64,000 nt of DNA from the NCBI RefSeq assembly GCF_000744815.1, contig NZ_JQMQ01000004.1:434001-498000 (forward strand). The letters run 5' to 3'. Within the stretch, counting starts at the first letter, position 1. Each line of letters starts with the position of its first letter. Positions 3,667 to 43,256 of the stretch are shown piece after piece. The translations under genes were made by a program, and so were the position numbers. The stretch comes from Phaeacidiphilus oryzae TH49 (lineage in GTDB: Bacteria > Actinomycetota > Actinomycetes > Streptomycetales > Streptomycetaceae). The notes beneath the pieces were generated by a model. The model searched no databases. It was not told where the DNA came from and saw only the letters and a list, made by a program, of their open reading frames with translations.

Positions 3667-3723
3667 CCGGATCCTCCTCGTTCTGGCGGCAGGCCACCGT
3701 GCCGACCCGTCTTCCGGGCCTGC

Positions 3724-5169
3724 TCACCGGCCTTGCCCGGTGGGGACGTCAGTCTCGGCCGCGGCCTCCGTGGGCACCTCACCTGCGGGGGGTGAGGGCC
3801 GCCGGCCCCCCGCGGCGGTGATCGCGATCTCGTAGCAGGCCAGCAGCACCGCGATGACGATGAGCGAGGTCCAGGACGAGAGCAGCAGGGCGATCAGCGC
3901 CGCGAGGACGGCGCCGCCGACCCGCAGGACGTCCGCGTGGCGGGACAGCCAGGGGCGCAGCCCGTGTTCCCGGAAGAGGCGGTCGCCGATCCGGGACCCG
4001 CGGGCCCCGGCCCACCGCAGGCCGGAGCCGGCCTGGCGGCGCAGCCACTTCGGCAGGCGTCCAGGGCCCACCAGATAGGCGATCACGGCCAGCGCGATGC
4101 CCAGCCACAGCAGCTGGTCGCCGCGGTCCCGCAGGGTGGTGAAGACGATCGACATGGCCGCCCGCATGCCGTCCCGGTAGATCCCGGCCGGCACCTGCCC
4201 CAGCAGTTCGCCCCGCACCGCCCGGAGCACGCTGCTGAGCACCGTGACCGAGACGATCAGCCACAGTCCGAGCTGGAGCAGCGTTCTCCGGCGTCCGGGG
4301 GAGACCCACAGCGCCACCCCGAGGAGCACCACCACGGCGATCAGCAGCCCGACCAGGGCGCGCTTGAAGAGCAGCACGGCGTCCTGCAACTGCCCGAGTC
4401 GGTGCCGGTTGTAGAGGGTGATCTGCCCGAAGTCCTGCGGCAGGCTGACCCCGAGGGCCTGCTGGATCCGGTCGTGGAGGCCCGGCGGGACCTCGCCCGA
4501 GGTGAGGGTGGGCAGGTCGATCTTCTTGCCGAACAGGGTGGGGAGTTGCTCCTGCAGCGCGTTGAGCGCGTTGTTCACCAGCGGCAGCAGGTTCAGCGTG
4601 ACCGTGCCGCCCTGCACCGTCACCCCCTCCGAGCGGTTCTCCAGCACGGCGACGATCCGCTCCTGGGTGAACCGGTTGGCCGCCCGCCACAGGGACTGGA
4701 ACCGCTCGGTCGCGAGCAGCCTGGAGAGCGAGGTCCGCAGCAGGGTGTGCACCTGGTCGGACGCCGGGCCGGCCAGGAAGGAGGCCTTCGGGGGCAGGGA
4801 CTGGGCGAGCCGCTGCTCCACGTTCAGCCGGTCGTAGATCTGGTCCGCGAGATAGCTGGAGACCGCCGTGTTCACCGCGGGGTCCTTCGGCAGCGGGCCC
4901 ACCGTGGCCACCCAGCGGTCGGTGTCGAAGGTGGTCCTGGCCCCCCACACCCCGACCACCGAGGTCACCGAGAGGACCGCCACCAGCGCGATCAGCACCG
5001 CCGCGATGATCCGCCGGGCGGTCAGCAGCCGCAACCGGCGGCGCTGCGCGGTCCCGGCCCGGGCGCGCAGCTCGGCGACCTCCGCCCGCAGCCTCAGGAC
5101 CTCTGCGTCGGTCGACTCGGCGGGTTCCGGAGCGCCGCCGGCCGGCAGGGGAGTGTCCTCTTCGCCCAT
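3724..5169 (-). CDS. integral membrane protein with N-terminal coiled coil
   Basis: A 481-residue protein of an uncharacterised actinobacterial family. Residues 22-38 form a short acidic coiled coil (EVLRLRAEVAELRARA), followed by a basic stretch and a first membrane helix at about 54-76. A roughly 190-residue domain between the first and second helices is probably extracytoplasmic. Further helices lie at about 270-290, 297-315, 350-370 and 415-440, and the tail is acidic. No enzymatic motif is visible. It is transcribed away from the DUF6325/DUF1269 pair, with a shared palindrome (5219-5235) 50 bp from its start. The next gene on the same strand begins 57 bp downstream. Confidence 0.75.
   Translation of the reverse strand: MGEEDTPLPAGGAPEPAESTDAEVLRLRAEVAELRARAGTAQRRRLRLLTARRIIAAVLIALVAVLSVTSVVGVWGARTTFDTDRWVATVGPLPKDPAVNTAVSSYLADQIYDRLNVEQRLAQSLPPKASFLAGPASDQVHTLLRTSLSRLLATERFQSLWRAANRFTQERIVAVLENRSEGVTVQGGTVTLNLLPLVNNALNALQEQLPTLFGKKIDLPTLTSGEVPPGLHDRIQQALGVSLPQDFGQITLYNRHRLGQLQDAVLLFKRALVGLLIAVVVLLGVALWVSPGRRRTLLQLGLWLIVSVTVLSSVLRAVRGELLGQVPAGIYRDGMRAAMSIVFTTLRDRGDQLLWLGIALAVIAYLVGPGRLPKWLRRQAGSGLRWAGARGSRIGDRLFREHGLRPWLSRHADVLRVGGAVLAALIALLLSSWTSLIVIAVLLACYEIAITAAGGRRPSPPAGEVPTEAAAETDVPTGQGR
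3779..3795. promoter_or_regulatory. TCACC-N7-GGTGA palindrome, site 1
   Basis: Inverted repeat TCACCTGCGGGGGGTGA with perfect 5-bp arms. It lies within the last codons of the 481-residue membrane protein gene and about 113 bp upstream of the GH63-like start at 3666. It shares arms and spacing with six other sites in the first 17 kb. Its position fits an internal promoter for the glycosidase pair. Confidence 0.5.
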
Positions 5170-5218
5170 GGGAGTTCCACCTCCGCGGCCACTGTGGCCG
5201 CGACCGCGCCGGCCTCCC

Positions 5219-5235
5219 TCACCTCCGGCGGGTGA
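5219..5235. promoter_or_regulatory. TCACC-N7-GGTGA palindrome, site 2 (divergent promoter)
   Basis: TCACCTCCGGCGGGTGA sits between divergent genes, 50 bp from the start at 5169 (minus) and 67 bp from the start at 5302 (plus). It could serve both. Perfect arms, 7-bp spacer. Confidence 0.55.
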
Positions 5236-5301
5236 CGTGCCGCCGGCGGCCTCCTGCTGGAATCACGCCAGGGGGCGGGGCGACCGTCGATGGGAGGCGC
5301 G

Positions 5302-5844
5302 ATGACAGAGATCGGACCGGTGCAGCTGCTGGTCGTGGGATTCGGCCCGGACGCCAAGTTCGAGGGCCGGGTCATCGACGAGCTGGTGGCGCTGGAGGAG
5401 AGCAGGCAGCTCCTCGTCCTCGACATCCTCTTCGTCGGCAAGGGCCGAGCCGGTGAGCTCTACACCCTGGACTACCAGGCCGAGGGGATGGGCGACACGG
5501 TGGCGGCACTGCTCGGGATCCCCAGGGAGCGAGTCCGGGCCGCCGAGGCGGAGGTGCCGAGCCTGGCCGAGGGCCACGCCTTCGGGCTGGGCATCGAGGC
5601 GATCAGGGCGATGGCCGACTCCCTCGACGAGGGGACCTCGGCGGCGTACGTCCTGCTGGAGCACGTCTGGGCGCGCAGGCTGCGCTCCGCGATCCGGGAC
5701 ACCGGAGGCGTGCCGGTCGCCGAGGGCTTCCTGACGCGTGAGGCGCTGGAGCCGGTGCTCGCAGAGGTCGCCGCGGCGGCCGTGCGGCGCGAAGGACCGG
5801 AGAAGGGCCGGGAGACCGGCGACAAGCGGAAGAGGAGGCACTGA
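5302..5844 (+). CDS. DUF6325-like protein
   Basis: A 180-residue soluble protein with the family pattern GPVQLLVVGF near the N-terminus, LLVLDILFV in the middle, and ALEPVLAEV followed by a highly charged, lysine/arginine-rich tail. The function is unknown; the family occurs next to DUF1269 proteins in actinobacterial stress loci. ATG at 5302 is preferred over ATG at 5290, because GGGAGG lies 5 nt before it and would otherwise fall inside the coding region. The stop overlaps the next start (TGATG), so the two genes form an operon. The palindrome 67 bp upstream probably marks its promoter. Confidence 0.75.
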   Translation: MTEIGPVQLLVVGFGPDAKFEGRVIDELVALEESRQLLVLDILFVGKGRAGELYTLDYQAEGMGDTVAALLGIPRERVRAAEAEVPSLAEGHAFGLGIEAIRAMADSLDEGTSAAYVLLEHVWARRLRSAIRDTGGVPVAEGFLTREALEPVLAEVAAAAVRREGPEKGRETGDKRKRRH

Positions 5845-6329
5845 TGGCCGATCTGGTTGTGCTCGGATTCTCCGACAAGGAGAAGGCGGAGGCCGTGCTG
5901 CGGCTCGCCAAGGACCTGTCCCGCCAGGAGCTGCTCGACCTGGAGGACTCGGCGCTCGCCTGGCGGACCATGGACGGCAAGCTGCATGTCCGGCAGACCT
6001 TCAGCACCACCAAGACGGGAGCGGTCGGCGGCGCGCTGTGGGGGACGCTCTTCGGCATGCTGTTCCTGATGCCGGTCTTCGGTGCGGCGGTGGGGGCGGC
6101 CACCGGCGCGGTCGCCGGCCGGCTCACCGACGTGGGCGTCAACGACGCCTTCGTGAAGGAGACCGCGGCCGCCCTTGAGCCGGGCCGCGCCGCCGTCTTC
6201 GCTCTGGTCCGGCGGAGCACCCCGGACCGTGTGCGGGAGGCGCTGCGGCCGTTCGGTCCCTCCGTCATCCGCACCTCGCTCACCAAGGACCGCGAAGAGG
6301 AACTGGTCCAGGCGCTGCAGGGCGGGTGA
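5844..6329 (+). CDS. DUF1269 family protein
   Basis: A 161-residue protein. It has the N-terminal ferredoxin-like strand MADLVVLGFSDKEKAEAVL, a glycine/alanine-rich hydrophobic hairpin at about 55-95 (GGALWGTLFGMLFLMPVFGA, then GAATGAVAGRL), and a C-terminal PDRVREALRPFG block ending in LTKDREEELVQAL. This is the usual architecture of DUF1269, a membrane-associated family of unknown function linked to stress islands. It is coupled to the DUF6325-like gene by a one-base overlap and an AGGAGG site. Confidence 0.88.
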   Translation: MADLVVLGFSDKEKAEAVLRLAKDLSRQELLDLEDSALAWRTMDGKLHVRQTFSTTKTGAVGGALWGTLFGMLFLMPVFGAAVGAATGAVAGRLTDVGVNDAFVKETAAALEPGRAAVFALVRRSTPDRVREALRPFGPSVIRTSLTKDREEELVQALQGG

Positions 6330-6382
6330 GCCCGGCAGGTCGGGCGGGCGGTCCTGAGCGGGCCCCCGCCCGGGAGCGGAAT

Positions 6383-6394
6383 TCACCCGGGTGA
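6383..6394. promoter_or_regulatory. short-spaced version of the palindrome, site 3
   Basis: TCACCCGGGTGA has the same 5-bp arms as the other sites, but the spacer is 2 bp instead of 7, about half a helical turn shorter. It lies 91 bp upstream of the LAL regulator start at 6485. It may be an autoregulatory variant. Confidence 0.4.
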
Positions 6395-6484
6395 GACCGG
6401 CGGAGGCCGCGCCTCCGCCGTGCCCGGGCGTCCATACTTGGCTGCGCAGCACCACTCCCGTTCCCCGAGAGCGAGGTGCCGCTC

Positions 6485-8797
6485 ATGGCCGAGGCATCGA
6501 ATCCGCGGTCCGCGGGTCCGCCGGGGGCGCCCGCCGGTCATCCGCCCGGACTGCCCTCCTGGCTGGTCCCGCGGCCACGTCTGACGGAGCGTCTGGCCCG
6601 GGGCGCCCTCGGGCCGCTGACCGTGGTGGTCGGCCCGGTGGGCGCCGGGAAGACCGCACTGGCCCTGGACTGGGTGCACACCGGACGGCTGCCGGGCCCG
6701 GTGGCCTGGGTGGCCTGCGACGGACGGGTGGAGGACCCGGCCGTCTTCTGGGGCCGGCTCACCGCCGCACTGCGGCAGGCCGGAGTGGCGGTCTCGGACG
6801 CCGACCCGGCCGGTCCCGCCCAGCTCCTGGTGGCCGGGCTGGCCGCCGACCTGGACCGGCACGGTGGACCGGTGGTGCTGGTCCTGGACGACTTCCAGCC
6901 CGCGCCCGGCTCGCCGCTCGCCGAGGGGGTCTCCTGCCTCCTCCGGCACACCGCACCCGATGTGCTGCGGCTGGTCGTGCTGGCCCGCCGGGACCCCCCG
7001 CTCCATCTCCACCGGGAGCGCCTCACCAGCGGCCTGGCCGAACTCCGCACCGCCGACCTCGCCTTCGACGACCAGGAGGCCGCGGCGCTCCTCGCGCAGC
7101 ACGGCATCGAGCTGCCCCGGCAGGCGGTGAGCACCCTTCGCCGACGGACCGACGGCTGGGCCGCCGGGCTGCGGCTGGCCGCGATGTCCATGGAGCGGCA
7201 GAGCGACCCGGCCGGGTTCGTGGCCCAGTTCGCCGGGGACGACGAGGCGATCGCCAGCTATCTGATCGAGGAGGTGCTGGACGTCCAGCCGCCGGGGATG
7301 CGCCGGCTGCTGCTGAGGACGAGCGTGCTGGAGCGGATGAACGCCGAGCTCGCCGCCGAGCTGGCCGGGGAGGAGGCCGGGGCGCACTTCGGCGCGCTGG
7401 TCCGGGAGAACTCCTTCCTCCAGCCGGTGGGACAGGGCTGGTATCGCTGCCACCAGATGTTCGCCGACGTCCTGCGGATGTGCCTCCGCCACGAGGCCCC
7501 GGGCCTCGTCGGTCCGCTCCACGACCGGGCCGCGGCCTGGCTCGGCGCGCATGGGCTGCTCGCCGACGCGGTCCGGCACCTCCTCGCCGCCGGGGAGCAC
7601 GACCGGGCCGCCCGGCTGATCGTCCACCGGCTGGCGATCGGCCAGGTCCTGGGCCTCGGCCCGGCCCGGCTGCCCGCCGAGCCGACCCCGCGTTCCGCGG
7701 TCGAGCCCAGCGCCGAGAGCCCGGAGGGGCTGCTGCTCGCCGCCGCGGCGGCGCACGCCAGAGGGGAGGAGCAAGCGGTCGTCCGGGACCTGGCGGCCGC
7801 CGAGGGGCTCCTCGACGAGTCGCCCGCGGAGGAGGAGCGCGACCGGATCGCCCGCTGCCGGCTGGCCCATGCGGTGATCCGCATGGAGCGGCTGCGGCTG
7901 CGCGCCCCGGAGGAGGCCAGGGCCGCCGCGGCCGACGCCGAGCGGGCCGCCGCCCAGCTGCCGCCGGGGGCGACGGCGGAACGCCCCGAGATCGCGGCGC
8001 TCACCCTCGCCCTGCGCGGCGGGGGCGAGCTGCGGGCGGGCGGCCTCAAGGCCGCCGAGACCTCCCTGACCAAGGCGCTCAAGGCCGCGGTGGCCGCCGG
8101 GAGCCCCGCGCTGCGCCGCGACAGCCTGATCGAGCTGGCACTGGTGGAGGCGCTGCGCGGGCGCTTCCGGGCCGCCGAGGAACTGGTCTCGCACGCCGCA
8201 CAGCCGCCACTGCCGTCCGGCCCGGCGGGCGGCCCGGCTCGGGCGTCCCTCCATCTGGTACGGGCCTGGCTCGCTCTGGCGCACGGTGTCCCGCCGGCCG
8301 CCCGGCGCGAGCTGGCCCGGGCCGAGGCGGTGCTCGCCGCCCGGCCCGACCCGTTCCTCTCGGACGTGGGCGCACTGGTCGGGGAGGTTGCCCGGATGGC
8401 GGTCCGCGGCGGGGAGGCGGGACCCGGCGGCGGGCCGGCGGCCGGTCGGCGGCTGCCCGGAGCGGTGCTCCAGACGGCGCAGGCGGTCTCCGCCGCGCTC
8501 CTCGCCCGCCGGCCCCAGGGCGCGGAGGGCGGCGGCGCCGGGGGCGTCCAGGCGGGGACGGCGGCCGGGGAGCCGCGGCCGGAGGCGGAGCAGCCGCCGT
8601 TCGCGGAGCGGCTCAGCCCCCGGGAGCAGGACGTGCTGGACCGGCTGGCCCAGATGATGACCACCGAGGAGATCGCCGAGGAGCTGTGCCTCTCCGTCAA
8701 CACCGTGAAGACGCATCTGAAGAGCGTCTACCGGAAGCTGGCGGTCTCCCGGCGCTCGGCCGCCGTCCGCCGGGCGCGCTCGCTGAACCTCCTGTGA
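6485..8797 (+). CDS. LAL/MalT-type LuxR-family transcriptional regulator
   Basis: A 770-residue STAND-type ATPase regulator. Walker A GPVGAGKT lies at about residues 50-57, and a Walker B-like VVLVLDDF near 133. A MalT-like winged region (RRTDGWAAGLRLA) and a helical-repeat region rich in Ala/Glu/Arg follow. The C-terminal LuxR HTH (about 705-765) contains LSPREQDVLDRLA and TTEEIAEELCLSVNTVKTHL. It is somewhat shorter than the usual 850-950 residues. ATG 6485 is preferred over GTG 6476 because GAGG sits 8 nt before it. It lies inside the palindrome-bearing gene cluster and converges on a second LuxR gene. It is the best local candidate for the regulator of that cluster (inference). Confidence 0.9.
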   Translation: MAEASNPRSAGPPGAPAGHPPGLPSWLVPRPRLTERLARGALGPLTVVVGPVGAGKTALALDWVHTGRLPGPVAWVACDGRVEDPAVFWGRLTAALRQAGVAVSDADPAGPAQLLVAGLAADLDRHGGPVVLVLDDFQPAPGSPLAEGVSCLLRHTAPDVLRLVVLARRDPPLHLHRERLTSGLAELRTADLAFDDQEAAALLAQHGIELPRQAVSTLRRRTDGWAAGLRLAAMSMERQSDPAGFVAQFAGDDEAIASYLIEEVLDVQPPGMRRLLLRTSVLERMNAELAAELAGEEAGAHFGALVRENSFLQPVGQGWYRCHQMFADVLRMCLRHEAPGLVGPLHDRAAAWLGAHGLLADAVRHLLAAGEHDRAARLIVHRLAIGQVLGLGPARLPAEPTPRSAVEPSAESPEGLLLAAAAAHARGEEQAVVRDLAAAEGLLDESPAEEERDRIARCRLAHAVIRMERLRLRAPEEARAAAADAERAAAQLPPGATAERPEIAALTLALRGGGELRAGGLKAAETSLTKALKAAVAAGSPALRRDSLIELALVEALRGRFRAAEELVSHAAQPPLPSGPAGGPARASLHLVRAWLALAHGVPPAARRELARAEAVLAARPDPFLSDVGALVGEVARMAVRGGEAGPGGGPAAGRRLPGAVLQTAQAVSAALLARRPQGAEGGGAGGVQAGTAAGEPRPEAEQPPFAERLSPREQDVLDRLAQMMTTEEIAEELCLSVNTVKTHLKSVYRKLAVSRRSAAVRRARSLNLL

Positions 8798-8815
8798 GGC
8801 CGTGCGGCCGCGCGG

Positions 8816-8834
8816 CCGAGGCGGTCGGCCTCGG
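8816..8834. terminator. hairpin between convergent LuxR genes
   Basis: CCGAGGC-GGTCG-GCCTCGG forms a perfect 7-bp stem with a 5-nt loop in the 56-bp gap between two convergent genes. There is no T-tract, as is common in actinomycetes. It could act in both directions. Confidence 0.55.
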
Positions 8835-8853
8835 ACCCGGCCGGCTCCCGGGC

Positions 8854-9321
8854 TCAGACCAGGCCCAGCTCCCGGGCCCGGTCCACGGCCTCGGTCCGGG
8901 AACCGGCCCCGAGCTTGCGGTACACCGCCCGGGTGTGGCTCTTGACGGTGTTGTGCGAGACGTACATCCCGTTGGCGATCTGGCGCAGCGACAGCTCCTC
9001 CGGCAGCCGGCGCAGTACGGCCAGCTGGCGGTCCGTCAGCCGGACGCGGCCCCCGCCGGACGATCCCGGCCGCTGCCGGTCCGCCGGCTCCGGCAGGCGG
9101 GCCAGCACCGCCGAGGCCTCCTCGACCAGCGCGCCCGTGCAACGCGGATCCGCCATCTCCTGGGCGATCCGCATCAGGGCGTCGGCGAGCCCCACCAGGC
9201 AGCTGGTGAGCGCCGCGTCGGCGGTCGCGCTGTCCAGCCTGCGGAGCCGGTCGTACAGGACGGACACCTCGCCGGTGCGCGCGTCGCCGGTGTCCGGCTC
9301 GATGCACAGTGTTGCGGTCAA
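8854..9321 (-). CDS. short LuxR-family HTH regulator
   Basis: A 155-residue protein. The N-terminal ~90 residues are helical and of unknown fold, with no receiver-domain Asp pattern. A typical LuxR HTH follows at about 93-150 (VRLTDRQLAVLRRLPEELSLR, NGMYVSHNTVKSHTRAVYRKL, TEAVDRARELGLV). TTG at 9321 is chosen because GAAGGAG lies just upstream; a longer reading to 9396 adds a non-conserved leader. The HTH keeps the VSxNTVKSH recognition helix of the family. It converges with the LAL regulator and may act with it on the local palindromes, but nothing in the sequence proves this. Confidence 0.8.
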   Translation of the reverse strand: MTATLCIEPDTGDARTGEVSVLYDRLRRLDSATADAALTSCLVGLADALMRIAQEMADPRCTGALVEEASAVLARLPEPADRQRPGSSGGGRVRLTDRQLAVLRRLPEELSLRQIANGMYVSHNTVKSHTRAVYRKLGAGSRTEAVDRARELGLV

Positions 9322-9420
9322 CGCGTCTCCTTCCCCCGCGCGTCCCGTCCCGCGTCCACAGTGGGACGCGGGCGGGGGGCGGAGGAAGGGGCCCAACGGC
9401 CTCCCAGCGGCCTGGACCCG

Positions 9421-9696
9421 TCAACTCCCGGCGTCGGAGGGGCTGGTGAGTCTGCGCACCTCGAGGAGCTCAAGGCCGAGGGCCTGGATGCGGTCGATGA
9501 CGGCGTACAGGGCGGCCTGGTCCAGGCCGCGGCCGAGGAGAGCGGTCTCGGCGGGACGGGTGACCACCGTCAGCTCCGCGAAGGCCGACTGGTAGGACTC
9601 GCCCATTCTGCCCCGGATCCGGATCTCGAAGTCGGCATCGCCGGTCGGGGAACCGGCCGGCTCGCGCTCCGGGGAGCCCGCCTGCGGTCCACCCAT
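9421..9696 (-). CDS. small conserved protein with FEIRIRG motif, function unknown
   Basis: A 91-residue soluble protein. After a flexible Gly/Pro/Glu-rich start comes a compact domain with FEIRIRGRMGESY, an AFAELTVVTRPAETALLGRG strand-turn segment, and a helix LYAVIDRIQALGLELLEVRR. The pattern suggests a small ferredoxin-like or ACT-like fold. ATG 9696 is chosen because AGGAGG is 7 nt upstream; another in-frame ATG at 9726 lacks such a site. It is divergent from a DUF7144 gene, with one palindrome (9766-9782) 70 bp upstream. Confidence 0.6.
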   Translation of the reverse strand: MGGPQAGSPEREPAGSPTGDADFEIRIRGRMGESYQSAFAELTVVTRPAETALLGRGLDQAALYAVIDRIQALGLELLEVRRLTSPSDAGS

Positions 9697-9765
9697 GACG
9701 GCACCTCCTCTGCGACCGCCTGGCACATCGCGCTCATTCTCGCGGCCGGACCGGTGGCGGCGGCA

Positions 9766-9782
9766 TCACCTCGGGCGGGTGA
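9766..9782. promoter_or_regulatory. TCACC-N7-GGTGA palindrome, site 4
   Basis: TCACCTCGGGCGGGTGA, perfect arms, lies 70 bp upstream of the small minus-strand gene starting at 9696. A second copy 66 bp further on faces the plus-strand gene. Confidence 0.55.
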
Positions 9783-9848
9783 GCGGCGGGCGGGCGGCGG
9801 TCGATGGGCAGTGGGTGGGGGTCGGCGGTCGGCGGCCCGGCCGGGGTT

Positions 9849-9865
9849 TCATCCCCGGTGGGTGA
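9849..9865. promoter_or_regulatory. TCACC-N7-GGTGA palindrome, site 5
   Basis: TCATCCCCGGTGGGTGA, one arm mismatch, is flanked by T and A so the repeat reads TTCATCC-N5-GGGTGAA. It lies 58 bp upstream of the DUF7144 gene at 9924. Confidence 0.5.
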
Positions 9866-9923
9866 ACCGGCGCCGAGCGCCCCCCGCCATCCTGATGAAT
9901 CCGCAGATCAGGAGGTTCCCAGA

Positions 9924-10394
9924 ATGGCCGAGCAGAGTTCACCCGGCGCCGTTCCCGGCCGCCCCGGAGGGCCCGAGCCGGAGCCGCACGTCCGCCCGCT
10001 CTCCATCGGCGGCGTGGTCTTCGCCGTGTTCGTGCTGGCGATCGTCGGCGGCTTCCACGCGATCGCGGGGCTGGCCACCATCCTCAACCACAACTACTCA
10101 CGGGCGCAGGGGGACTACGCCTTCGACTTCAGCGTCACCGCCCGCGGCTGGGTGGAGCTGGTCACCGGCATCGTGGTGGCGGCGGCGGCGTTCAACATCT
10201 TCAGCGGCAAGACCTGGGCCCGGGCGGTCGGCATGGCGGCCGCGGTGGTGAGCGCGCTGGAGAACTTCTTCTTCACGCCCTACTACCCGGTGTGGTCGGC
10301 GATCCTGATCGTCCTGGACATCGTGGTGATCTGGTCGCTGGCGGTGTACGGGCACCGGGAGGCGCACAAGGTCTACGGTGCCCCGCTGAGATAG
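9924..10394 (+). CDS. DUF7144-type small integral membrane protein
   Basis: A 156-residue protein with a 25-residue Gly/Pro-rich cytoplasmic start and four membrane helices: around IGGVVFAVFVLAIVGGFHAI, GWVELVTGIVVAAAAFNIF, ARAVGMAAAVVSAL and WSAILIVLDIVVIWSLAVYG. Characteristic spots are the YAFDFSVTARGW loop and the PYYPVWS turn. A paralogue lies at 17229-17639 and shares both. ATG 9924 has AGGAGG 8 nt upstream. The function of the family is unknown. It has its own palindrome upstream. Confidence 0.82.
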   Translation: MAEQSSPGAVPGRPGGPEPEPHVRPLSIGGVVFAVFVLAIVGGFHAIAGLATILNHNYSRAQGDYAFDFSVTARGWVELVTGIVVAAAAFNIFSGKTWARAVGMAAAVVSALENFFFTPYYPVWSAILIVLDIVVIWSLAVYGHREAHKVYGAPLR

Positions 10395-10402
10395 CCGGGC
10401 GG

Positions 10403-10421
10403 CCGGGGCCCCGGGCCCCGG
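10403..10421. terminator. GC palindrome between convergent genes
   Basis: CCGGGGCCC-C-GGGCCCCGG fills the 30-bp gap between the DUF7144 gene and the lipid kinase. It can form a strong hairpin. Its position between two stop codons suggests a bidirectional terminator, but such GC palindromes also arise by chance here. Confidence 0.4.
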
Positions 10422-10424
10422 GCC

Positions 10425-11746
10425 TCAGTGCGCCGAGGTCAGCCCCAGCCGGAACAGCAGCCGCCAGTCCAGCTCCGGGCGCTCCCGGTACATCCCCGGC
10501 CGCAGCCGCGGCACGAGCACCCGGAGCGCTCCCGGCAGTACCTCGCAGTGCACCGGTACCGGCAGCCGCACCGCCTCGCCGTCGATACCGGCCGGGACCG
10601 TCTCCTGGTCGGCATCGACCCGCACACTGGGGGCGGCCGCCCGGGCCAGGCCCGTGGAGTGCCGCCCCCGGAGCAGCCCGGCGGCCTGGGCGGCGCTGTC
10701 GACGGTCACCCCGACGCAGCCGAGGACACCGCCGTCGAGCCTCGACCGCCGTCCCAGGCCGACGATGTCGCGGTAGCCGTAGGGGTTGTTGCTCACCAGC
10801 AGGGCCTGCGGCTCATCGAAGACCCGCTCGCCGGCCCGGGCGGTCAACCGGGGCCCCCGGTGGCCGACCAGGAAGTCCGGCAGCAGCTCCAGCACGGTCC
10901 TGGTCTTGCCGTCCCGGTAGGCGGGGCTCTGCACCACCGCGGCGTAGGCGCCGAAGGAGACGTTGTTGACGAACGGCCGCCCGCCCGCCCGGCCGAGGTC
11001 GACCCGCAGCTCGACCCCGTCCCGCAGCGCCTCCAGCGCCTTCGCCGGATCCGCGCGGTCCAGCCCGAGGTCGAGGGCGAAGTGGTTGCGGGTGCCGGCC
11101 GGTATCACCAGGAACGGCAGCCCCAGTTCCGCGGCCACGTCCGCGACCAGTGCCTGGGTGCCGTCGCCGCCCGCGACGCCGAGGAGGTCGGCCCGGCCCC
11201 GGCCTCCGCGCGGGCCAGCGCGGCCACGTCGATCGCGGCCCCGCCGGCCGGCTCCAGCAGCACCACCCGGGCGCCCAGCTCCTCTGCCCGCTCGCGGAGG
11301 CCGAAGCGGCCCACCTTTCCGCCGCCGGAGCGCGGGTTCATGATCAGGACGGGGTGGGCGCACGGCGTCCGGGGGAACTCCGGCATGGCGGCCTCGGGCG
11401 TCCGCAGGGCCAGGGCCGTGCGCCCGGCAAGGGCCGCCAGCAGCCACAGCACCCACGCCGTCACGACGACCCAGAACAGATGGGCCCAGGCGAACACCAC
11501 GATCACCGTGACCGGCACCGCCACCGCCAGCACGGCGGTCAGCAGGCGGACCAGCCCGCGCCGGCTCAGCACCCACCACATCGCGGCGGCGGTCACCGCC
11601 AGGCCGCCGAGCCCGATCGCGAGGAGGGCGAACGTCCGCGGCCCGGCGAACACACCGAGGACCGCGGCGGCCGCGGCGGCGGCGAGCAGCGCTCCCCGCG
11701 CCAGCCACCGCTCCTGCCGCAGTCGGCTTCGCGTCATCGGTTCCAT
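10425..11746 (-). pseudogene. diacylglycerol/lipid kinase (YegS/DagK-like), split by a frameshift
   Basis: The N-terminal part (from 11746) has four predicted membrane helices, then VLIMNPRSGGGKVGRF, the start of a DAGK catalytic domain. Near 11190-11203 the frame changes. The rest of the domain continues in another frame, with the nucleotide-binding GVAGGDGTQALVA, PAGTRNHFALDLGLD and VNNVSFGAYAAVV, to the stop at 10425. Both halves are typical of one lipid kinase of about 440 residues. A single missing base (or two extra) in the run ggcccggccccggcc would explain it. This may be an assembly indel, since the whole domain is otherwise intact. Membrane lipid phosphorylation is the family role. 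Confidence 0.8.
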
Positions 11747-11782
11747 GCGGCTCAGTCTGGTCCTCGGACCGGACAGCCGGCC

Positions 11783-11799
11783 TCACCCGCCGGACGGGA
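11783..11799. promoter_or_regulatory. degenerate copy of the palindrome (site 9)
   Basis: TCACCCGCCGGACGGGA keeps the left arm and the 17-bp length, but the right arm is degraded. It lies 37 bp upstream of the lipid kinase start. This is weak evidence on its own. Confidence 0.22.
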
Positions 11800-11951
11800 C
11801 CCGGGCGGGCTCCCGGTGGCCTCCCCGGGCGGCCGGGGTGGCGCACCGGCCGCCCGTGAACGCCGGTTCCCGCCAGGCCCGTTGCCCCGACCTGCGTGCT
11901 GCCCCCCGTCCGCTCCGCGACCGATCCCGTCCGGCCCGGCCGGCCGGCGGT

Positions 11952-11968
11952 TCACACCGGCCGGGTGA
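11952..11968. promoter_or_regulatory. TCACC-N7-GGTGA palindrome, site 6
   Basis: TCACACCGGCCGGGTGA, one arm mismatch, lies 54 bp upstream of the DUF2252 gene at 12022. The remaining intergenic sequence (11800-11951) shows nothing I can name. Confidence 0.48.
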
Positions 11969-12021
11969 CGCAGGACCGCCCGCCCGCCCGCACTGTCCGC
12001 AGAGGACGGAGGGAGTGCGCC

Positions 12022-13425
12022 ATGATCGAGACCAGCAGCCGCCACCTCACGCCCCGGGAGCGGGCGGAGCGGGGCAGGGAAGCCCGCTCCCGGGTGCCGC
12101 GGTCCAGCCATGCCGAGTTCGCGCCCGGCGCCGACCGCCCGGACCCGGTCGACGTGATCGAGCGCCAGTCCGGCACCCGGCTGCCGGAACTGGTGCCGAT
12201 CCGCTACGGCCGAATGCTCGAATCCCCCTTCCGCTTCTACCGGGGCGCGGCCGCGATCATGGCCGGGGACCTGGCCGCGACCCCGGACAGCGGCATCCGG
12301 GCCCAGCTGTGCGGGGACGCCCACATGATGAACTTCCGGCTGCTGGCCTCCCCGGAGCGGCATCTGATGTTCGACGTCAACGACTTCGACGAGACCCTTC
12401 CCGGTCCGTGGGAGTGGGACGTCAAGCGGCTGGCGGTGAGCCTGGTGGTCGCGGGCCGCGGCAACGGCTTCGACCGCCAGGAGCGGTCCGCCGTCGTTGC
12501 CGCGACCGTCCGCTCCTACCGGGAGACGATGGCCCGGCTGGCCGCGATGCGCACCCTCGACGTCTGGTACCTGCGGATCGACGCCGACGAGGCGTACGCG
12601 GCGCTCTCCGCCCGGCTGGAGCCGGGGGCCAGGCGGCGCTTCACCAAGGCCATGAAGAAGGCCCGCAGCCGCGACCACCTGCGGGCCGTGCGCAAACTGG
12701 CCCGGGTGGGGGACGGCGGGCTGCGGCTGGTCCCCGACCCCCCGCTGCTGACGCCGCTCGGGGACCTGGAGCCGGGCAGCCACCAGGACTACCTGGAGAA
12801 GCAGTTGACCGTGCTGATCGACGGCTACGCCCGCTCGCTGCCGGCGGACCGCCGGGCCCTCCTCGACCAGTACCGGGTGGTGGACATGGCCCGCAAGGTG
12901 GTCGGCGTGGGCAGTGTGGGCACCCGCTGCTGGGTCCTGCTGCTCCTCGGCCGGGACGACGCCGACCCGCTGGTGCTCCAGGCCAAGCAGGCCGAGCCCT
13001 CCGTGCTGGAGGAGTACGCGGGGGCCGCCGCCCAGCAGAACCAGGGGGAGCGGGTGGTCGTCGGGCAGCGGCTGATGCAGGCCACCAGCGACGTCTTCCT
13101 CGGCTGGGAGCGCGCCACGGGACTCGACGGGCGCGAACGGGACTTCTACATCCGGCAGTTGTACGACTGGAAGGCGATCCCGCAGCCGGAGCTGATGACG
13201 CCCGGCGTGATGCGGCTCTTCGGCGAGCTCTGCGGAGTGACCCTGGCCCGCGCCCACGCGCGCTCCGGCGACCGCATCGCCATCGCCGCCTACCTGGGCC
13301 GCTCCGATCCCTTCGACCGGGCGGTGGCCCGCTTCGCGGAGGCCTACGCGGACCAGAACGAGCGGGACCACCGGACGCTGGCCGAGGCGGTGCGGACCGG
13401 GCGGGTGGCCGCGAAGTCGGAGTGA
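12022..13425 (+). CDS. DUF2252 family protein
   Basis: A 467-residue soluble protein of unknown biochemical role with a kinase-like fold. Recognisable family blocks are FYRGAAAIMAGDLA (about 72-85), the CGDAHMMNF and DVNDFDETLPGPWEWDVKRL segments (about 95-135) that resemble a phosphotransferase active site, and VVGQRLMQATSDVFLGW later. ATG 12022 has GGAGGGAG upstream and is the only start with a good ribosome site. It is monocistronic, with a palindrome 54 bp upstream. It converges on the YihY gene 25 bp downstream. Confidence 0.85.
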   Translation: MIETSSRHLTPRERAERGREARSRVPRSSHAEFAPGADRPDPVDVIERQSGTRLPELVPIRYGRMLESPFRFYRGAAAIMAGDLAATPDSGIRAQLCGDAHMMNFRLLASPERHLMFDVNDFDETLPGPWEWDVKRLAVSLVVAGRGNGFDRQERSAVVAATVRSYRETMARLAAMRTLDVWYLRIDADEAYAALSARLEPGARRRFTKAMKKARSRDHLRAVRKLARVGDGGLRLVPDPPLLTPLGDLEPGSHQDYLEKQLTVLIDGYARSLPADRRALLDQYRVVDMARKVVGVGSVGTRCWVLLLLGRDDADPLVLQAKQAEPSVLEEYAGAAAQQNQGERVVVGQRLMQATSDVFLGWERATGLDGRERDFYIRQLYDWKAIPQPELMTPGVMRLFGELCGVTLARAHARSGDRIAIAAYLGRSDPFDRAVARFAEAYADQNERDHRTLAEAVRTGRVAAKSE

Positions 13426-13450
13426 CGTCCGCCCCCGCCGAGGCGGCGGA

Positions 13451-14269
13451 TCACTCGGACTCCTTCCCGGCGTCGCCCGGAACATCGGCCCGAGCGCCGC
13501 CCGGAACGCCGCCCTTGACCAGCACCCGCCCCACGGCGATCCCGAAGACCACCACCGTGAACAGCAGGATGAGCCAGGAGAGCAGGCTGAACACCGAGCC
13601 GAGCGCCCCGTACCGGGCCTGGCTCATCCGCAGCGTCCGGGGCAGCCAGACCGCCGAGAGGGAGCAGAAGCCGATCACGCCACTGCCGGTCAGCAGCGCC
13701 CCGGGGAGCAGTGGCCGCCATCCCACCCGGGCGATGAGCAGCAGGTGCTGGGTCCACCACCACATCAGCACCGCCGCTGCCAGTTGCAGCGGCACCCCCA
13801 GCCCGGGGCCCGCGCCGAAGGCCCGGTGGAGGATGCCCTGGAGGATGAGCACGGTGATCCAGACCACCAGCCACACCGCCCACCGCCAGGCCGCCTTCAG
13901 CAGGCTGGCGTGCGGCAGCTCCCAGGCCCGCTCGCACATCCGCTGCAGCGCGCGGGTGAAGGCGGTCGCGGAGAGGACCGCGACCAGTACGCCTGCGGCC
14001 CCCCACTGGTGGAGCGCCGCGTCCCCGCCGGCGGTCAGCCGGTCGGTCTCCGACACCACCGGGCCGCCGGTCCCGATCAGGGTGTGGAGGGAGCTCAGCA
14101 GCTGGCGGCGGATGGCCTCAGGGCTGAACGAGGCGATGGCGATGAGCATCGGCAGCACGGCGAGGAAGGCCTGGGCGGCCAGCCGGGTCGCCATCTCCAG
14201 CAGGCTGACGCGGACCAGCTGCTGGGCGATGCGGCCCGCGAGCAGCCGGGCCGTATCGGCGATCGACAT
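13451..14269 (-). CDS. YihY/BrkB-family membrane protein
   Basis: A 272-residue inner-membrane protein with about six helices and the family's N-terminal pattern AAQAFLAVLPMLIAIASF. A conserved central loop LQRMCERAWELPHASLLKAA and a C-terminal polytopic part follow (YGALGSVFSLLSWLILLF). The function of YihY proteins is not established; RNase BN activity was once wrongly assigned to them. GGAGGG precedes the ATG at a good distance. It is divergent from the repeat protein, with the palindrome 14368-14384 between them. Confidence 0.85.
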   Translation of the reverse strand: MSIADTARLLAGRIAQQLVRVSLLEMATRLAAQAFLAVLPMLIAIASFSPEAIRRQLLSSLHTLIGTGGPVVSETDRLTAGGDAALHQWGAAGVLVAVLSATAFTRALQRMCERAWELPHASLLKAAWRWAVWLVVWITVLILQGILHRAFGAGPGLGVPLQLAAAVLMWWWTQHLLLIARVGWRPLLPGALLTGSGVIGFCSLSAVWLPRTLRMSQARYGALGSVFSLLSWLILLFTVVVFGIAVGRVLVKGGVPGGARADVPGDAGKESE

Positions 14270-14367
14270 GGCGGGGTCCCTCCCTGGCGCTCGGCGTCCT
14301 CCCGGCAGCGTCGGCCGCCGCGGGCCGGCCCACGTCGCCCATGCCGGGTGACGGCAGGACCGGCCGT

Positions 14368-14384
14368 TCACCCCGGGGGGATGA
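14368..14384. promoter_or_regulatory. TCACC-N7-GGTGA palindrome, site 7 (MalT-box-like half)
   Basis: TCACCCCGGGGGGATGA lies between divergent genes. The right side reads GGGGATGAGG, which equals the textbook E. coli MalT box GGGGAKGAGG. It is 99 bp from the YihY start and 36-63 bp from candidate starts of the repeat protein. Confidence 0.52.
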
Positions 14385-14419
14385 GGCGCGCGGGCCCCGG
14401 GTGGTGCTGCGGTCGACGA

Positions 14420-15169
14420 ATGACGGCAGCAAGCGTGGCGGGCAGAATGGCCGGCCTCGTCACCCGGCCGGCGCGAGCGGTGGCCGGAGCCCTGGACGAC
14501 GCGGCGGGCGCGCTGGTCCGCGGGCTGGTCTCGGCGGTCGTCGACCGGCTGGACCTGAACGCCCTCGCCGACCGGCTGGACCTGGACCGGATCGCCGACC
14601 GGGTGGACGTCAACCGGATCGCCGAGCGGGTCGACGTCCACCGCATCGCGGACCGGGTGGACGTCAACGGGATCGCCGACCGGGTGGACGTGGACCGGAT
14701 CGCCGAGCGGGTGGGCATCGACGCCGTGATCGACCGGATCGACCTGGTCGGCCTCACCCGCGAGGTGCTGGTCGAGATCGACCTGGGCCGGATCGTCCGC
14801 GACACCAGCGGCGGCATGGCGATCGATACCGCGGACAGCGTCCGCCTCCTCGCCGCCCGAGGCGACCGCACCGTAAACCGCCTCACCGACCGCCTCCTCC
14901 ACCGAACCCACCCCACACCCCCACCCGCCCCCGAGCCCACGCCCGGCCCCCCGACCGGCTCGCCGCCGGGGTTGTCCGCCAAGCCCGCGGACGGGCCTGC
15001 GCCCGGGTCCATGCCCACGCCTGGCCCCGCGGCCGCGCCCGCCCCCGTGCCCAGACCCGCGTACTCGGCAGGGCCCCCGGGCGGGCCCCCGCCCGGGCTC
15101 GGCGGCAGGGGCTCGGGCGTGGCCTCGTTTGGGGCTGGGCCCGGGGGCGCGGCTGGGTTCGTGCGGTGA
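14420..15169 (+). CDS. nonapeptide-repeat protein with Pro/Gly-rich tail (possible N-half of an RDD protein)
   Basis: About 249 residues. After a short Ala-rich segment come eight or so 9-residue repeats of the form ADRVDVNRI (about residues 40-115). A conserved block REVLVEIDLGRIVRDTSGGM, an SVRLLAARGDRTVNRLTDRLL helix and a 95-residue Pro/Gly/Ala-rich linker follow. Related actinobacterial proteins, as I recall them, carry such repeats fused to a C-terminal RDD membrane domain; here RDD is in the next frame. The start is uncertain: ATG 14420, 14447 or 14381 are in frame and none has a strong ribosome site. The stop overlaps the next GTG. Confidence 0.6.
   Translation: MTAASVAGRMAGLVTRPARAVAGALDDAAGALVRGLVSAVVDRLDLNALADRLDLDRIADRVDVNRIAERVDVHRIADRVDVNGIADRVDVDRIAERVGIDAVIDRIDLVGLTREVLVEIDLGRIVRDTSGGMAIDTADSVRLLAARGDRTVNRLTDRLLHRTHPTPPPAPEPTPGPPTGSPPGLSAKPADGPAPGSMPTPGPAAAPAPVPRPAYSAGPPGGPPPGLGGRGSGVASFGAGPGGAAGFVR
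14541..14757 (+). repeat. tandem 27-bp coding repeats (9-residue units)
   Basis: About eight imperfect 27-bp units encode nonapeptides such as ADRLDLDRI, ADRVDVNRI, AERVDVHRI and ADRVDVDRI. The Asp/Arg/hydrophobic positions are fixed, while N/H/D/G vary at one spot. The DNA units differ mostly at variable positions. Confidence 0.8.
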
Positions 15170-15627
15170 GGGCGGGGGGCGGCGGCGGGTTCGTGGGGGC
15201 GCGGGCCGAGGGGGAGGTCGCCGGGGTGGTCAGCCGGGTGGTGGCCGCGGTGCTGGACAGTCTGGTGCTCTCCGGGAGCGCGCTGCTCCTCCAGGCGGTG
15301 GCGGGGTATGTGCGGATGGTGGTCGACGGCCCGCCGTTCCGGGCGCCCGAGTTGCCCGGCTGGGTGGCCGGACTCGGTGGCTGGGCGGTCGCCGTGGGCT
15401 ATCTCGGCGGGTGCTGGGCCGGGGCCGGGTACTCGGTGGGAGGGCGGTTCATGGGCCTGCGGGTCACCGGCAGGCGGGGGGAGCGGCTGCCCGTGCTGCG
15501 CGCCCTGCTTCGCGCCGGGCTGTGCGTGTCGTTCCCGATGGGCCTGCTGTGGAGTCCGTTCAGCCGCCGCCGGGCCTCGTTGCAGGACCTCCTGGTCCGC
15601 AGTGAGGTGCGCTACGACCGCCGCTGA
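15166..15627 (+). CDS. RDD family membrane protein
   Basis: About 153 residues. The RDD domain starts at VSRVVAAVLDSLVLSGSALL (the Arg and Asp that name the family), followed by three or four hydrophobic helices. The conserved GGRFMGLRVTGRRGERLPVLRALLRAG segment and LQDLLVRSEV close the protein. GTG 15166 overlaps the preceding stop (GTGA), giving coupling. There is no separate ribosome site, which also fits the alternative that this is the C-terminal half of one frameshifted repeat-RDD protein. RDD proteins are membrane proteins, some proposed as transporters. Confidence 0.75.
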   Translation: MRAGGGGGFVGARAEGEVAGVVSRVVAAVLDSLVLSGSALLLQAVAGYVRMVVDGPPFRAPELPGWVAGLGGWAVAVGYLGGCWAGAGYSVGGRFMGLRVTGRRGERLPVLRALLRAGLCVSFPMGLLWSPFSRRRASLQDLLVRSEVRYDRR

Positions 15628-15659
15628 CGGCCCCGGCCCGCGCCCACCCCGCCCCCGGG

Positions 15660-17069
15660 TCAGCTGCGCTGCCCCGGGTGGCCCCGTGGCAGCCGGGACG
15701 CGGCGACCAGACCGCCGAGGCCGATCGCTCCGAGGACGACCAGCGCCACCCCGTACGGCCCGATCGCCGGATCGGCCACCAGGATGGTCCCCGCGATCGC
15801 CGTACCCACCGAGGAGCCCAGGTTGGAGACGCTGCGCGAGAGCCCGGAGATCTCCCCCTGGAGCTCCTCGCCGAAGCTGGACTGCACCACGTTCACCGCC
15901 GGGGTGAGCATCACCCCGATGCCCAGGCCGATCAGCAGCAGACCGGGCACGAAGCTCCACACGCTCGGCGAGGCGTGGGCGAAGCCGATCAGGATCGCCA
16001 GGCCGCCGACGGTGGTGGCGAAGCCGGCCATGATCAGCGTCCGCGGCGAGCGCCGCTCGGCGAAGCGCCGTGCGCCCAGCGAGGTGACCAGCAGCCCGAA
16101 GGTGGACGCGCTGAAGATCACCCCGGTCTTGATGGCGTCGTAGTGCCGCACCACCTGGAGGTACGCCGCCACCACGAAGGACAGCCCCATCAGCACGAGC
16201 CACTGGACGTGCTGGGTGATCAGCCCGAGGTTGGACGTCCGGTTGCGGAACAGCGAGGTGGTCAGCAGCGGCCGGGCGCCGGAGCGCTCCCGGGCGCGCA
16301 CCCAGGCGAAGAACCAGACCAGTACCAGCACGCCGGCGACCAGCAGTGCCAGCATCAGCCACAGGTTGTTGTCGGCCGCCAGGATGCCCAGCACCACCAG
16401 TGTGAGCCCGCAGGCGGAGAGGACCGCGCCCACCGTGTCGAACTCCTGCTCGGGGTCGGCCGGCAGCGGGTCCACCAGCTGCCGGCTGAGCAGCACGATC
16501 GCCAGGACGACCAGGGCCTGGAAGACGAAGGCCGCCCGCCAGCTGAGCGCCGAGGTGATCAGCCCGCCCAGCAGCGGGCCGGCGGCGGCCCCGATGCCGC
16601 CCATCGCCATGATCGCCCCGAAGGCCCGGGCGCGGTCGGTGACCTCGGTGAAGAGGAGGGTGGTGAGGATGTAGACCGGCGGGATGAGGAGGGCGGTGCC
16701 GATGCCCTCCAGGATCGAGTTGCCCAGGATCAGGACGCCGAGCCCGGGCGCCGCGGCGCTCAGCAGCGCGCCGACGCCGTACACCGACAGGCCGGCGACC
16801 AGGCAGCGCTTCCGCCCGTAGCGGTCGCTCAGGATGCCGCCCGGGATCATCAGTGCCGCCATCACCAGCAGGAACACGGTGATGGCGGTCTGCACCCCCT
16901 GCACGGTGGTGTGGAGGTCCTTGCTGATGTCGTCGATCATCACGTTCATGTTGGAGCCGGCGAAGCTGCAGATGAACTGGGCGAGGGCGAGGGGCAGCAG
17001 CACCCGCCGCCGATGCGGGACGCCGCCGTGCCGCGCGTCTCCTCCGGCCGGAGTGGACGGTGGGGTCAT
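15660..17069 (-). CDS. MFS transporter, DHA2-like drug/proton antiporter
   Basis: A 469-residue polytopic protein. Motif A GGILSDRYGRKR lies after helix 2, and the conserved GIGTALLIPPVYILTTLLF and GPLLGGLITSALSWRAAF (motif C region) follow. The total helix count is about 14, typical of DHA2 exporters. ATG 17069 is preferred to 17135 because GGAGG lies 7 nt upstream and the longer leader is not conserved. It is divergent from the DUF7144 paralogue, with a shared palindrome. The substrate is unknown. Confidence 0.85.
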   Translation of the reverse strand: MTPPSTPAGGDARHGGVPHRRRVLLPLALAQFICSFAGSNMNVMIDDISKDLHTTVQGVQTAITVFLLVMAALMIPGGILSDRYGRKRCLVAGLSVYGVGALLSAAAPGLGVLILGNSILEGIGTALLIPPVYILTTLLFTEVTDRARAFGAIMAMGGIGAAAGPLLGGLITSALSWRAAFVFQALVVLAIVLLSRQLVDPLPADPEQEFDTVGAVLSACGLTLVVLGILAADNNLWLMLALLVAGVLVLVWFFAWVRARERSGARPLLTTSLFRNRTSNLGLITQHVQWLVLMGLSFVVAAYLQVVRHYDAIKTGVIFSASTFGLLVTSLGARRFAERRSPRTLIMAGFATTVGGLAILIGFAHASPSVWSFVPGLLLIGLGIGVMLTPAVNVVQSSFGEELQGEISGLSRSVSNLGSSVGTAIAGTILVADPAIGPYGVALVVLGAIGLGGLVAASRLPRGHPGQRS

Positions 17070-17130
17070 CGCTTCGCCTCCGATCGACGGCCTGGGCGAG
17101 AACAGCCTTCCGACCGGCGCCGCCACCGGC

Positions 17131-17149
17131 GTCACCCTAGGAGGGTGAC
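17131..17149. promoter_or_regulatory. TCACC-N7-GGTGA palindrome, site 8 (best copy)
   Basis: GTCACCCTAGGAGGGTGAC is the longest copy, with 7-bp arms around a CTAG-containing centre. It lies 62 bp from the MFS start (minus) and 80 bp from the DUF7144 start (plus). Confidence 0.6.
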
Positions 17150-17228
17150 GACCGCACCCCTCCCCGCCGGACCAGACTCAGCTACGCGGTGGTGCAACGG
17201 CACCCCGACCGAGCTAGGAGGTCCTGTC

Positions 17229-17639
17229 ATGATCTCTACCGGTGGCCGCTCGGAAGGCGCCCAGACGGCAGCCGTCGGCCTGACGCTCTTCGCGGCGATC
17301 ATGCTCTTCATCTCTGGAACCTTGGACTTCTTCCGGGGCCTGATGGGGATTCTCGAGGACAAGGTCTTCCTGACCACGCGCGGCTATGCGTTCGAGTTCG
17401 ACCTGACCGCGTGGGGCTGGATCCATCTGATCCTGGGGGTGATCGGGGTCGTGGTCGGCGCCGGCCTGCTGGCCGGGATGAAGTGGGCGCGGATCCTGGC
17501 GATCATCATCGCCGGGCTGCTGATCATCGCCAACTTCCTGTCGATCCCGTACTACCCGTTCTGGTCGATCACCGTGATCGCCCTGGACGCCTTGATCATC
17601 TGGGGCCTGTGCGTGGTCCGTCGGGATGACATGCCCTAG
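17229..17639 (+). CDS. DUF7144-type small integral membrane protein (paralogue)
   Basis: A 136-residue, four-helix membrane protein. It shares the YAFEFDLTAWGWIHL loop and IPYYPFWSITVIALD turn with the protein at 9924-10394, but has a shorter N-terminus. AGGAGG lies 8 nt before the ATG. The SulP gene starts 8 bp after its stop, so the two are co-transcribed. This is the second small membrane protein of this family under the same kind of palindrome. Confidence 0.82.
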   Translation: MISTGGRSEGAQTAAVGLTLFAAIMLFISGTLDFFRGLMGILEDKVFLTTRGYAFEFDLTAWGWIHLILGVIGVVVGAGLLAGMKWARILAIIIAGLLIIANFLSIPYYPFWSITVIALDALIIWGLCVVRRDDMP

Positions 17640-43059: not shown

Positions 43060-43256
43060 GGCGTGGCGCTCCTTGGGTGCGGTGGTGCGGCGGGTCGGCG
43101 CTCTGCTGGTCGCGCCATTGTCCACCAGCGCGCTCACCGCGCCCGGCGGGGTACCTCCCCTGGTCGCGGGCGGAGGGTGGCATGGCATGCTTCGCTCACC
43201 GACCATGGGTGATCGACTTCCGCTCGACCCCCGCCCCGTACCGTGAAAGGCCCGCC

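Follow-up and report, generated by a model that had tools for sequence, protein, structure and literature searches.

Regulators of the LAL type, large ATP-binding proteins with a LuxR-type helix-turn-helix (HTH) domain at the C-terminus, have been described as little studied, as a family, in the passage cited (PMC3282765). The literature compared here consists of open-access full texts, cited for the passages that bear on these systems. In Actinoplanes sp. SE50/110, the LAL protein MalT activates a region of 51 genes through the palindrome TCATCC-N5-GGATGA, with 34.4 ± 1.0 nt between its 3′ end and the mapped transcription starts; at least 37 genes responded to both deletion and overexpression of malT, none of them, in the passages cited, of maltose metabolism, and similar regions were reported in four further species (PMC7567727). 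Here we describe a palindrome, TCACC-N7-GGTGA, in a stretch of 64,000 nt from Phaeacidiphilus oryzae TH49 (bases 434001-498000 of contig C4 in the 7.8-Mb genome; hereafter the window and the home genome). It precedes most genes of an island at 973-17639, whose products are mostly membrane proteins or proteins of unknown function and include a LAL regulator. We consider it probable (about 0.8) that the island is activated by a dimer of its own LAL protein, bound to the N7 palindrome over the −35 region and centred near −43.

As far as the cited passages describe the Actinoplanes region, both loci have a LAL gene within its own region of mostly membrane or unknown-function genes, together with a second LuxR-type gene. 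Both have a 17-bp palindrome of 6-5-6 layout, which in the window recurs at many promoters of the LAL-holding region; it covers the −35 region in Actinoplanes and is predicted to do so here. The distance from site to start is predicted to be about 35 nt here, with starts placed only from the hexamer described below, compared with the 34.4 nt of Actinoplanes. The two systems differ in half-site (GGATGA in Actinoplanes, mostly GGGTGA here) and in family (Micromonosporaceae against our family f1, taken as Streptomycetaceae from its named Streptomyces relatives), and gene content was compared in part. The preliminary description of the window had known of no published motif that matches and had proposed an undescribed regulon. 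Neither statement can be kept, as far as the cited passages go. The Actinoplanes MalT site agrees in its 17-bp layout and in the promoter position predicted here, and is one base per half-site apart; the BldM site TCACcCgnncGgGTGA combines the identical half-site with a spacer that is shorter by one base (PMC4125116); and a counterpart system has already been published in Actinoplanes (PMC7567727). Judged by site and region, the island has a variant of MalT regulation in Actinoplanes (ACSP50_3915) that differs in the half-site and is widespread.

The palindrome and its hexamer

Between 3001 and 17500 the window holds four exact sites (3779, 5219, 9766 and 17132) and eight with at most one mismatch, the others being 9849, 11952, 14335 and 14368. 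In 400 dinucleotide shuffles of this segment, exact sites occurred with a mean of 0.015 (maximum 1) and sites with up to one mismatch with a mean of 0.55 (maximum 4). A genome-wide scan gave 16 exact sites in the home genome (2 for the reversed control pattern), so that the four inside 13.4 kb of the island form a cluster. The other 12 lie outside it, two of them with a common flank that by eye resembles a tRNA gene, which would fit chance palindromes in GC-rich DNA. The shuffles oppose chance, as do the spacer test, the hexamer test and the alignment footprints given below, and we assign it practically no likelihood. The palindrome is real and very probably functional.

A −10-like hexamer, nAnnnT, accompanies the palindrome at a fixed distance. 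For this comparison, 72 distinct exact sites were taken, with duplicates removed, from 35 LAL-linked loci, a mixture of loci found through the motif (motif-first) and loci found through the LAL HTH (protein-first). The hexamer started 22-24 nt downstream on at least one side in 64 of the 72 sites, compared with 4 of 72 at the control distance of 42-44 nt. Of the 144 oriented flanks, 47 had it at an offset of exactly 23 nt, whereas other offsets averaged 2.1 (the largest being 18, at 24 nt). In these 47 flanks the hexamer T is followed directly by G at 72% and 74%, and T occupies the first position in just 13%.

All 24 sites of the 17 protein-first loci never chosen by motif had the hexamer. 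It was found at 10 of the first 30 family motif matches, chosen without regard to LAL, at 2 of 9 single-site loci without LAL (from rough gene calls), and at 1 of the 12 home-genome sites outside the island. When the home genome was scanned with the bipartite pattern of palindrome plus hexamer, the three perfect matches all fell inside the island; allowing one mismatch gave 25 matches, 7 of them inside (reversed control, 2).

Six Streptomyces contigs (L046-L051), retrieved with the short LuxR-type protein of the island, have many island genes in common with the window, and each carries two or three exact palindromes at corresponding places. In the alignments, the palindrome arms and the downstream hexamer are conserved blocks amid divergent DNA. 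Conservation before orthologous genes, whose absence the preliminary description would have taken as refuting a regulon, is thus seen in these six contigs.

We propose an activator-dependent promoter with the palindrome as its operator half: TCACCY-N5-RGGTGA, followed after 22 nt by nAnnnT and often then GG. The LAL dimer would dock through its C-terminal LuxR-type HTH, one subunit per half-site. With the hexamer placed at −12 to −7, the site would end about 35 nt before the predicted start, and would cover the −35 region with its centre near −43. Class II activators usually bind over the −35 region, and bound LAL should touch RNA polymerase in their manner. As the hexamer keeps little besides A(−11) and T(−7), these promoters should depend on an activator. 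LAL would turn on the surrounding genes, and perhaps also itself.

Linkage to LAL genes and the candidate regulators

A search of 60 other genomes of the family with the LAL HTH (E ≤ 1e-12) gave 20 matches in 19 genomes, which define the protein-first loci; some N is present in four of the loci used in this work. Across all 20 (396 kb), arms separated by seven nucleotides were counted 30 times, and the 15 other spacer lengths between 0 and 15 were counted 0-7 times each. The 17 loci that the motif had no part in choosing gave a count of 24, against 0-6 for the others. The N7 site was present in 14 of the 20 loci. This dominance of N7, with the hexamer at its fixed place, agrees with the single dimeric regulator that had been proposed from the constant spacing. 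In the 35 family loci, spacers N2 (n=11) and N11 (n=14) were also raised; nine of the 11 N2 matches are an element before LAL that is treated below, and many N11 matches resemble, by eye, a conserved coding sequence of the MFS gene.

The spacer also separates these sites from those of BldM. As described in the passages cited, BldM of Streptomyces venezuelae has a LuxR-type HTH, and its Group I palindrome has the same half-site as the motif, both half-sites of the consensus TCACcCgnncGgGTGA being in common (PMC4125116). If BldM bound the N7 sites, the island would be a developmental target. BldM is, however, a response regulator with an N6 spacer in a 16-bp palindrome, whereas N7 and LAL are found here. 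The 20 LAL loci gave an N6 count of 0, and the home genome's 31 exact N6 sites all lie outside the island. Because of the spacer we rejected BldM as the regulator, and regard it as very unlikely.

The motif-first direction also led to LAL genes. Ten multi-site places were taken from the matches listed in a motif scan of 101 family genomes, and a LAL gene was found in all ten clusters so picked. By rough gene calls, LAL was the only family present in 9 of the 10 clusters and in none of nine single-site loci, and the runner-up was present in 7 of the 10 clusters. Among 61 family genomes there were 60 exact bipartite matches (reversed control, 4). The 39 with Y/R symmetry included 26 within 15 kb of a LAL-HTH match, compared with 0 of the 21 others. 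A single full-length LAL of this kind is encoded in the home genome. In another genome (G068), two separate LAL islands, L054 and L055, have one common operator, which would permit cross-talk.

Several observations weigh against LAL as the regulator. The exact N7 site was not found in 6 of the 20 protein-first loci, and 13 of the 39 symmetrical bipartite matches lay away from any LAL-HTH match. Inspection of ten such places revealed a weaker LAL adjoining the site in one, a LuxR-type HTH more than 8 kb off in another, and neither in eight. One of these eight is locus L212, where three bipartite matches fall in a stretch of 3.2 kb, two with near-identical DNA around them, and a LAL match was not found. 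The LAL HTHs of family f18 have a nearly identical recognition helix and almost no sites. Self-activation of LAL is unsure because the LAL side of the 5219 site lacks the hexamer A, and because a different palindrome, at 6383, precedes LAL.

The bipartite matches far from LAL genes would suit a regulator that is encoded elsewhere and has LAL genes merely as frequent targets. LAL is, however, the one gene common to the loci, and its Actinoplanes counterpart acts on its own region, as judged from the deletion described in the passages cited (PMC7567727). We hold a regulator encoded elsewhere to be highly improbable.

The short LuxR-type protein of the island (8854-9396, − strand; Pfam GerE, 3.5e-13) has to be weighed as well, since it is encoded within the island, carries an HTH of the LuxR type, and is present in L046-L051, contigs that were themselves retrieved with it. 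It could bind the palindrome with LAL as a bystander. In other LAL loci, which have the identical motif and hexamer, however, its only matches are to the HTH region of LAL or to other LuxR HTHs, and the gene common across the motif loci is LAL, not the short LuxR gene. The Actinoplanes region, too, has two LuxR genes, and deleting the second had slight effects only, according to unpublished data mentioned in the passages cited from PMC7567727. It thus seems quite unlikely that the short protein is the binder.

The preferred regulator, the MalT-like LAL protein (gene at 6476-8797, +), has 773 aa, with a Walker A pattern and a weak AAA match in its ATPase part and a GerE domain at 712-767 (Pfam, 1.1e-14). 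Its large size, Walker A pattern and C-terminal LuxR-type HTH are those of a LAL regulator, and ATP binding is predicted. The MalT equivalog model NF003420 matched it at 1.4e-65 with 221.9 bits, under the curated cut-off of 537, which leaves it outside that equivalog. In a tree of 34 of the 68 HTH-bearing frames, those that passed length and Walker A filters, it groups with six Streptomyces LALs, beside 19 other LALs of the family. A plasmid search with LAL gave 50 records, all below 60% identity and none with 80% coverage.

Sites and genes of the island

Eight sites of the window have a gene-facing hexamer at 23-25 nt. Distances from site to start codon were 36-112 nt, as expected from the 35-115 bp first noted. 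The exact site at 3779-3795 (−) serves the GH63/MGH1-like hydrolase gene (973-3666, −), with the hexamer at offset 23 (3751-3756), and is kept in L046, L048, L050 and L051. It lies within the 3′ end of the frame for a 481-aa membrane protein (3724-5169, −), yet is conserved there. The second exact site, at 5219-5235 (−), is also conserved and lies between the 481-aa gene (−) and the p181, DUF1269 and LAL genes to its right (+), a predicted operon. On the − side the hexamer follows at offset 23 (5191-5196), whereas TGGAAT, which stands on the + side toward the LAL operon, lacks the hexamer A. For p91 (9421-9696, −) there is an exact site at 9766-9782 (−), with the hexamer at offset 25 (9736-9741), kept in L046 and L048-L051.

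The site for the DUF7144 gene (9924-10394, +) at 9849-9865 (+) has one mismatch, the hexamer at offset 23, and the half-site GGATGA on one side; this form is kept in four of the five other aligned sequences (L046, L048, L049 and L050) and was not seen in L051. The degenerate site at 11783-11799 (−) precedes the lipid-kinase gene (10425-11746, −; start at 11746). It has two arm mismatches and the hexamer at offset 24, and its counterparts in L048, L050 and L051 are one-mismatch sites at the corresponding place, which supports its inclusion in the preliminary description. The DUF2252 gene (12022-13425, +) has a one-mismatch site at 11952-11968 (+), with the hexamer at offset 23 and a deviant GTGTGA arm that is kept in all three of L048, L050 and L051. 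Similarly, the one-mismatch site at 14335-14351 (−), hexamer offset 23, before the BrkB/YihY-like gene (13451-14269, −) has a GGGCGA arm kept in all four of L048-L051. The exact site at 17132-17148 lies between the MFS gene (15660-17069, −) and the second DUF7144 gene (17229-17639, +), with a hexamer in each direction, at offset 23 (−) and at offset 25 (+). Going by their gene families, these genes may have a role in stress.

Six of the seven equal-length sites listed at the outset are thus retained, four exact (3779, 5219, 9766 and 17132) and two with one mismatch (9849 and 11952). The seventh, 14368, was dropped because it has the hexamer on neither side; its counterpart was not found in L048-L051. 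The list had lacked the conserved 14335. The statement that no site follows 17.2 kb holds except for an exact arm match at 43196-43212, between AhpC/TSA peroxiredoxin and FAD oxidoreductase genes. As the hexamer was not found at 22-25 nt from it, this match was also rejected and is probably background. A two-mismatch site with hexamer at 14460 was judged to be chance because it lies inside the p240 frame.

The short-spacer palindrome that the preliminary description had counted with the others, TCACCCGGGTGA (6383-6394, spacer 2), is conserved before LAL. It is single-copy in the window and is present in the window and in all six Streptomyces contigs (7 of 7 islands), as two copies in tandem in L048 and L049. 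The hexamer was not found at 18-29 nt from it, and none of the 20 protein-first loci has a site of this type (N2 count, 0); for these reasons we consider it a different element. A CAYACTT sequence is conserved, by eye, about 39-40 nt beyond it. The element may be an operator for another regulator acting on LAL.

Outside the window, a one-mismatch palindrome with a hexamer at 23 nt was found at 9897-9913 of locus L169 (home genome C4:663796). Although within the longest frame, it precedes a plausible inner start of a PPK2 gene and has P-type ATPase, Usp, PRC-barrel and DUF7144 genes nearby; these surroundings are a possible second target region. A ppk2 gene is also named for the Actinoplanes relatives in the passages cited (PMC7567727). 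In the window, the lipid-kinase gene is split across two frames, an N-terminal part at 11105-11746 and a catalytic part in the frame at 10425-11846. Both parts match orthologs in L048, L050 and L051, each of which is in one frame, and the split is either a frameshift or a sequencing error.

Half-site variants and other LuxR-type regulators

In 15 LAL loci of other families we found four TCATC-N7-GATGA sites, four with mixed arms (three and one) and three TCACC sites, with the hexamer in 8 of the 11. The TCACC form as such is not general outside the family, with just three exact sites in these 15 loci. That TCATC, mixed and TCACC sites all occur in such loci suggests a single system whose half-site comes in two forms. 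The exact Actinoplanes form, TCATCC-N5-GGATGA, speaks against this: it is rare, with 17 places in 118 genomes of the class, and only four of them were within 9 kb of a LAL-HTH match. Of the 13 others, all of them inspected, 12 were without a LAL match and one had a LuxR-type HTH 5 kb off; the exact form is therefore mostly not LAL-linked in this sample. A class II glutamine amidotransferase is encoded in the Actinoplanes region, as far as its gene content is given in the passages cited (PMC7567727), and a bipartite site faces a gene for one in locus L101.

Other described regulators share parts of this arrangement, according to the passages cited. E. coli MalT is a LAL protein too, and its boxes have the half-site GGA(T/G)GA, one base from GGGTGA, but they are repeats of a hexanucleotide core, in contrast to the one fixed palindrome here (PMC7567727, PMC9628970). 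SCO6993, a LAL of Streptomyces coelicolor, also binds short palindromes; its footprinted sequences are unlike this motif, without a consensus, and it is described as a repressor of antibiotic regulators (PMC9628970). OsdR/DevR is a regulator of stress-linked Streptomyces genes with a LuxR-type HTH, whose motif, AGGGCCGATCGGCCCT, differs from the window sites, and it was not retained as a binder (PMC5069765).

In this family the half-site may have shifted from GGATGA to the GGGTGA of BldM, in which case one spacer base, N7 (LAL) against N6 (BldM), would separate two regulons in the same genome. Several LALs with near-identical DNA-binding domains and divergent bodies would then each have an island of their own with one operator. 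We offer this only tentatively and would sooner doubt it than rely on it. If it is true, different signals could call overlapping sets of protective genes via several LALs. The system is also well suited to testing how LuxR-type dimers of two kinds, with one half-site in common, act on separate promoters. With a precise bipartite promoter tied to a LAL subgroup, targets could be predicted from sequence throughout a large bacterial family. Many genes of unknown function would gain a named regulator, and the single Actinoplanes case would become part of a wider system.

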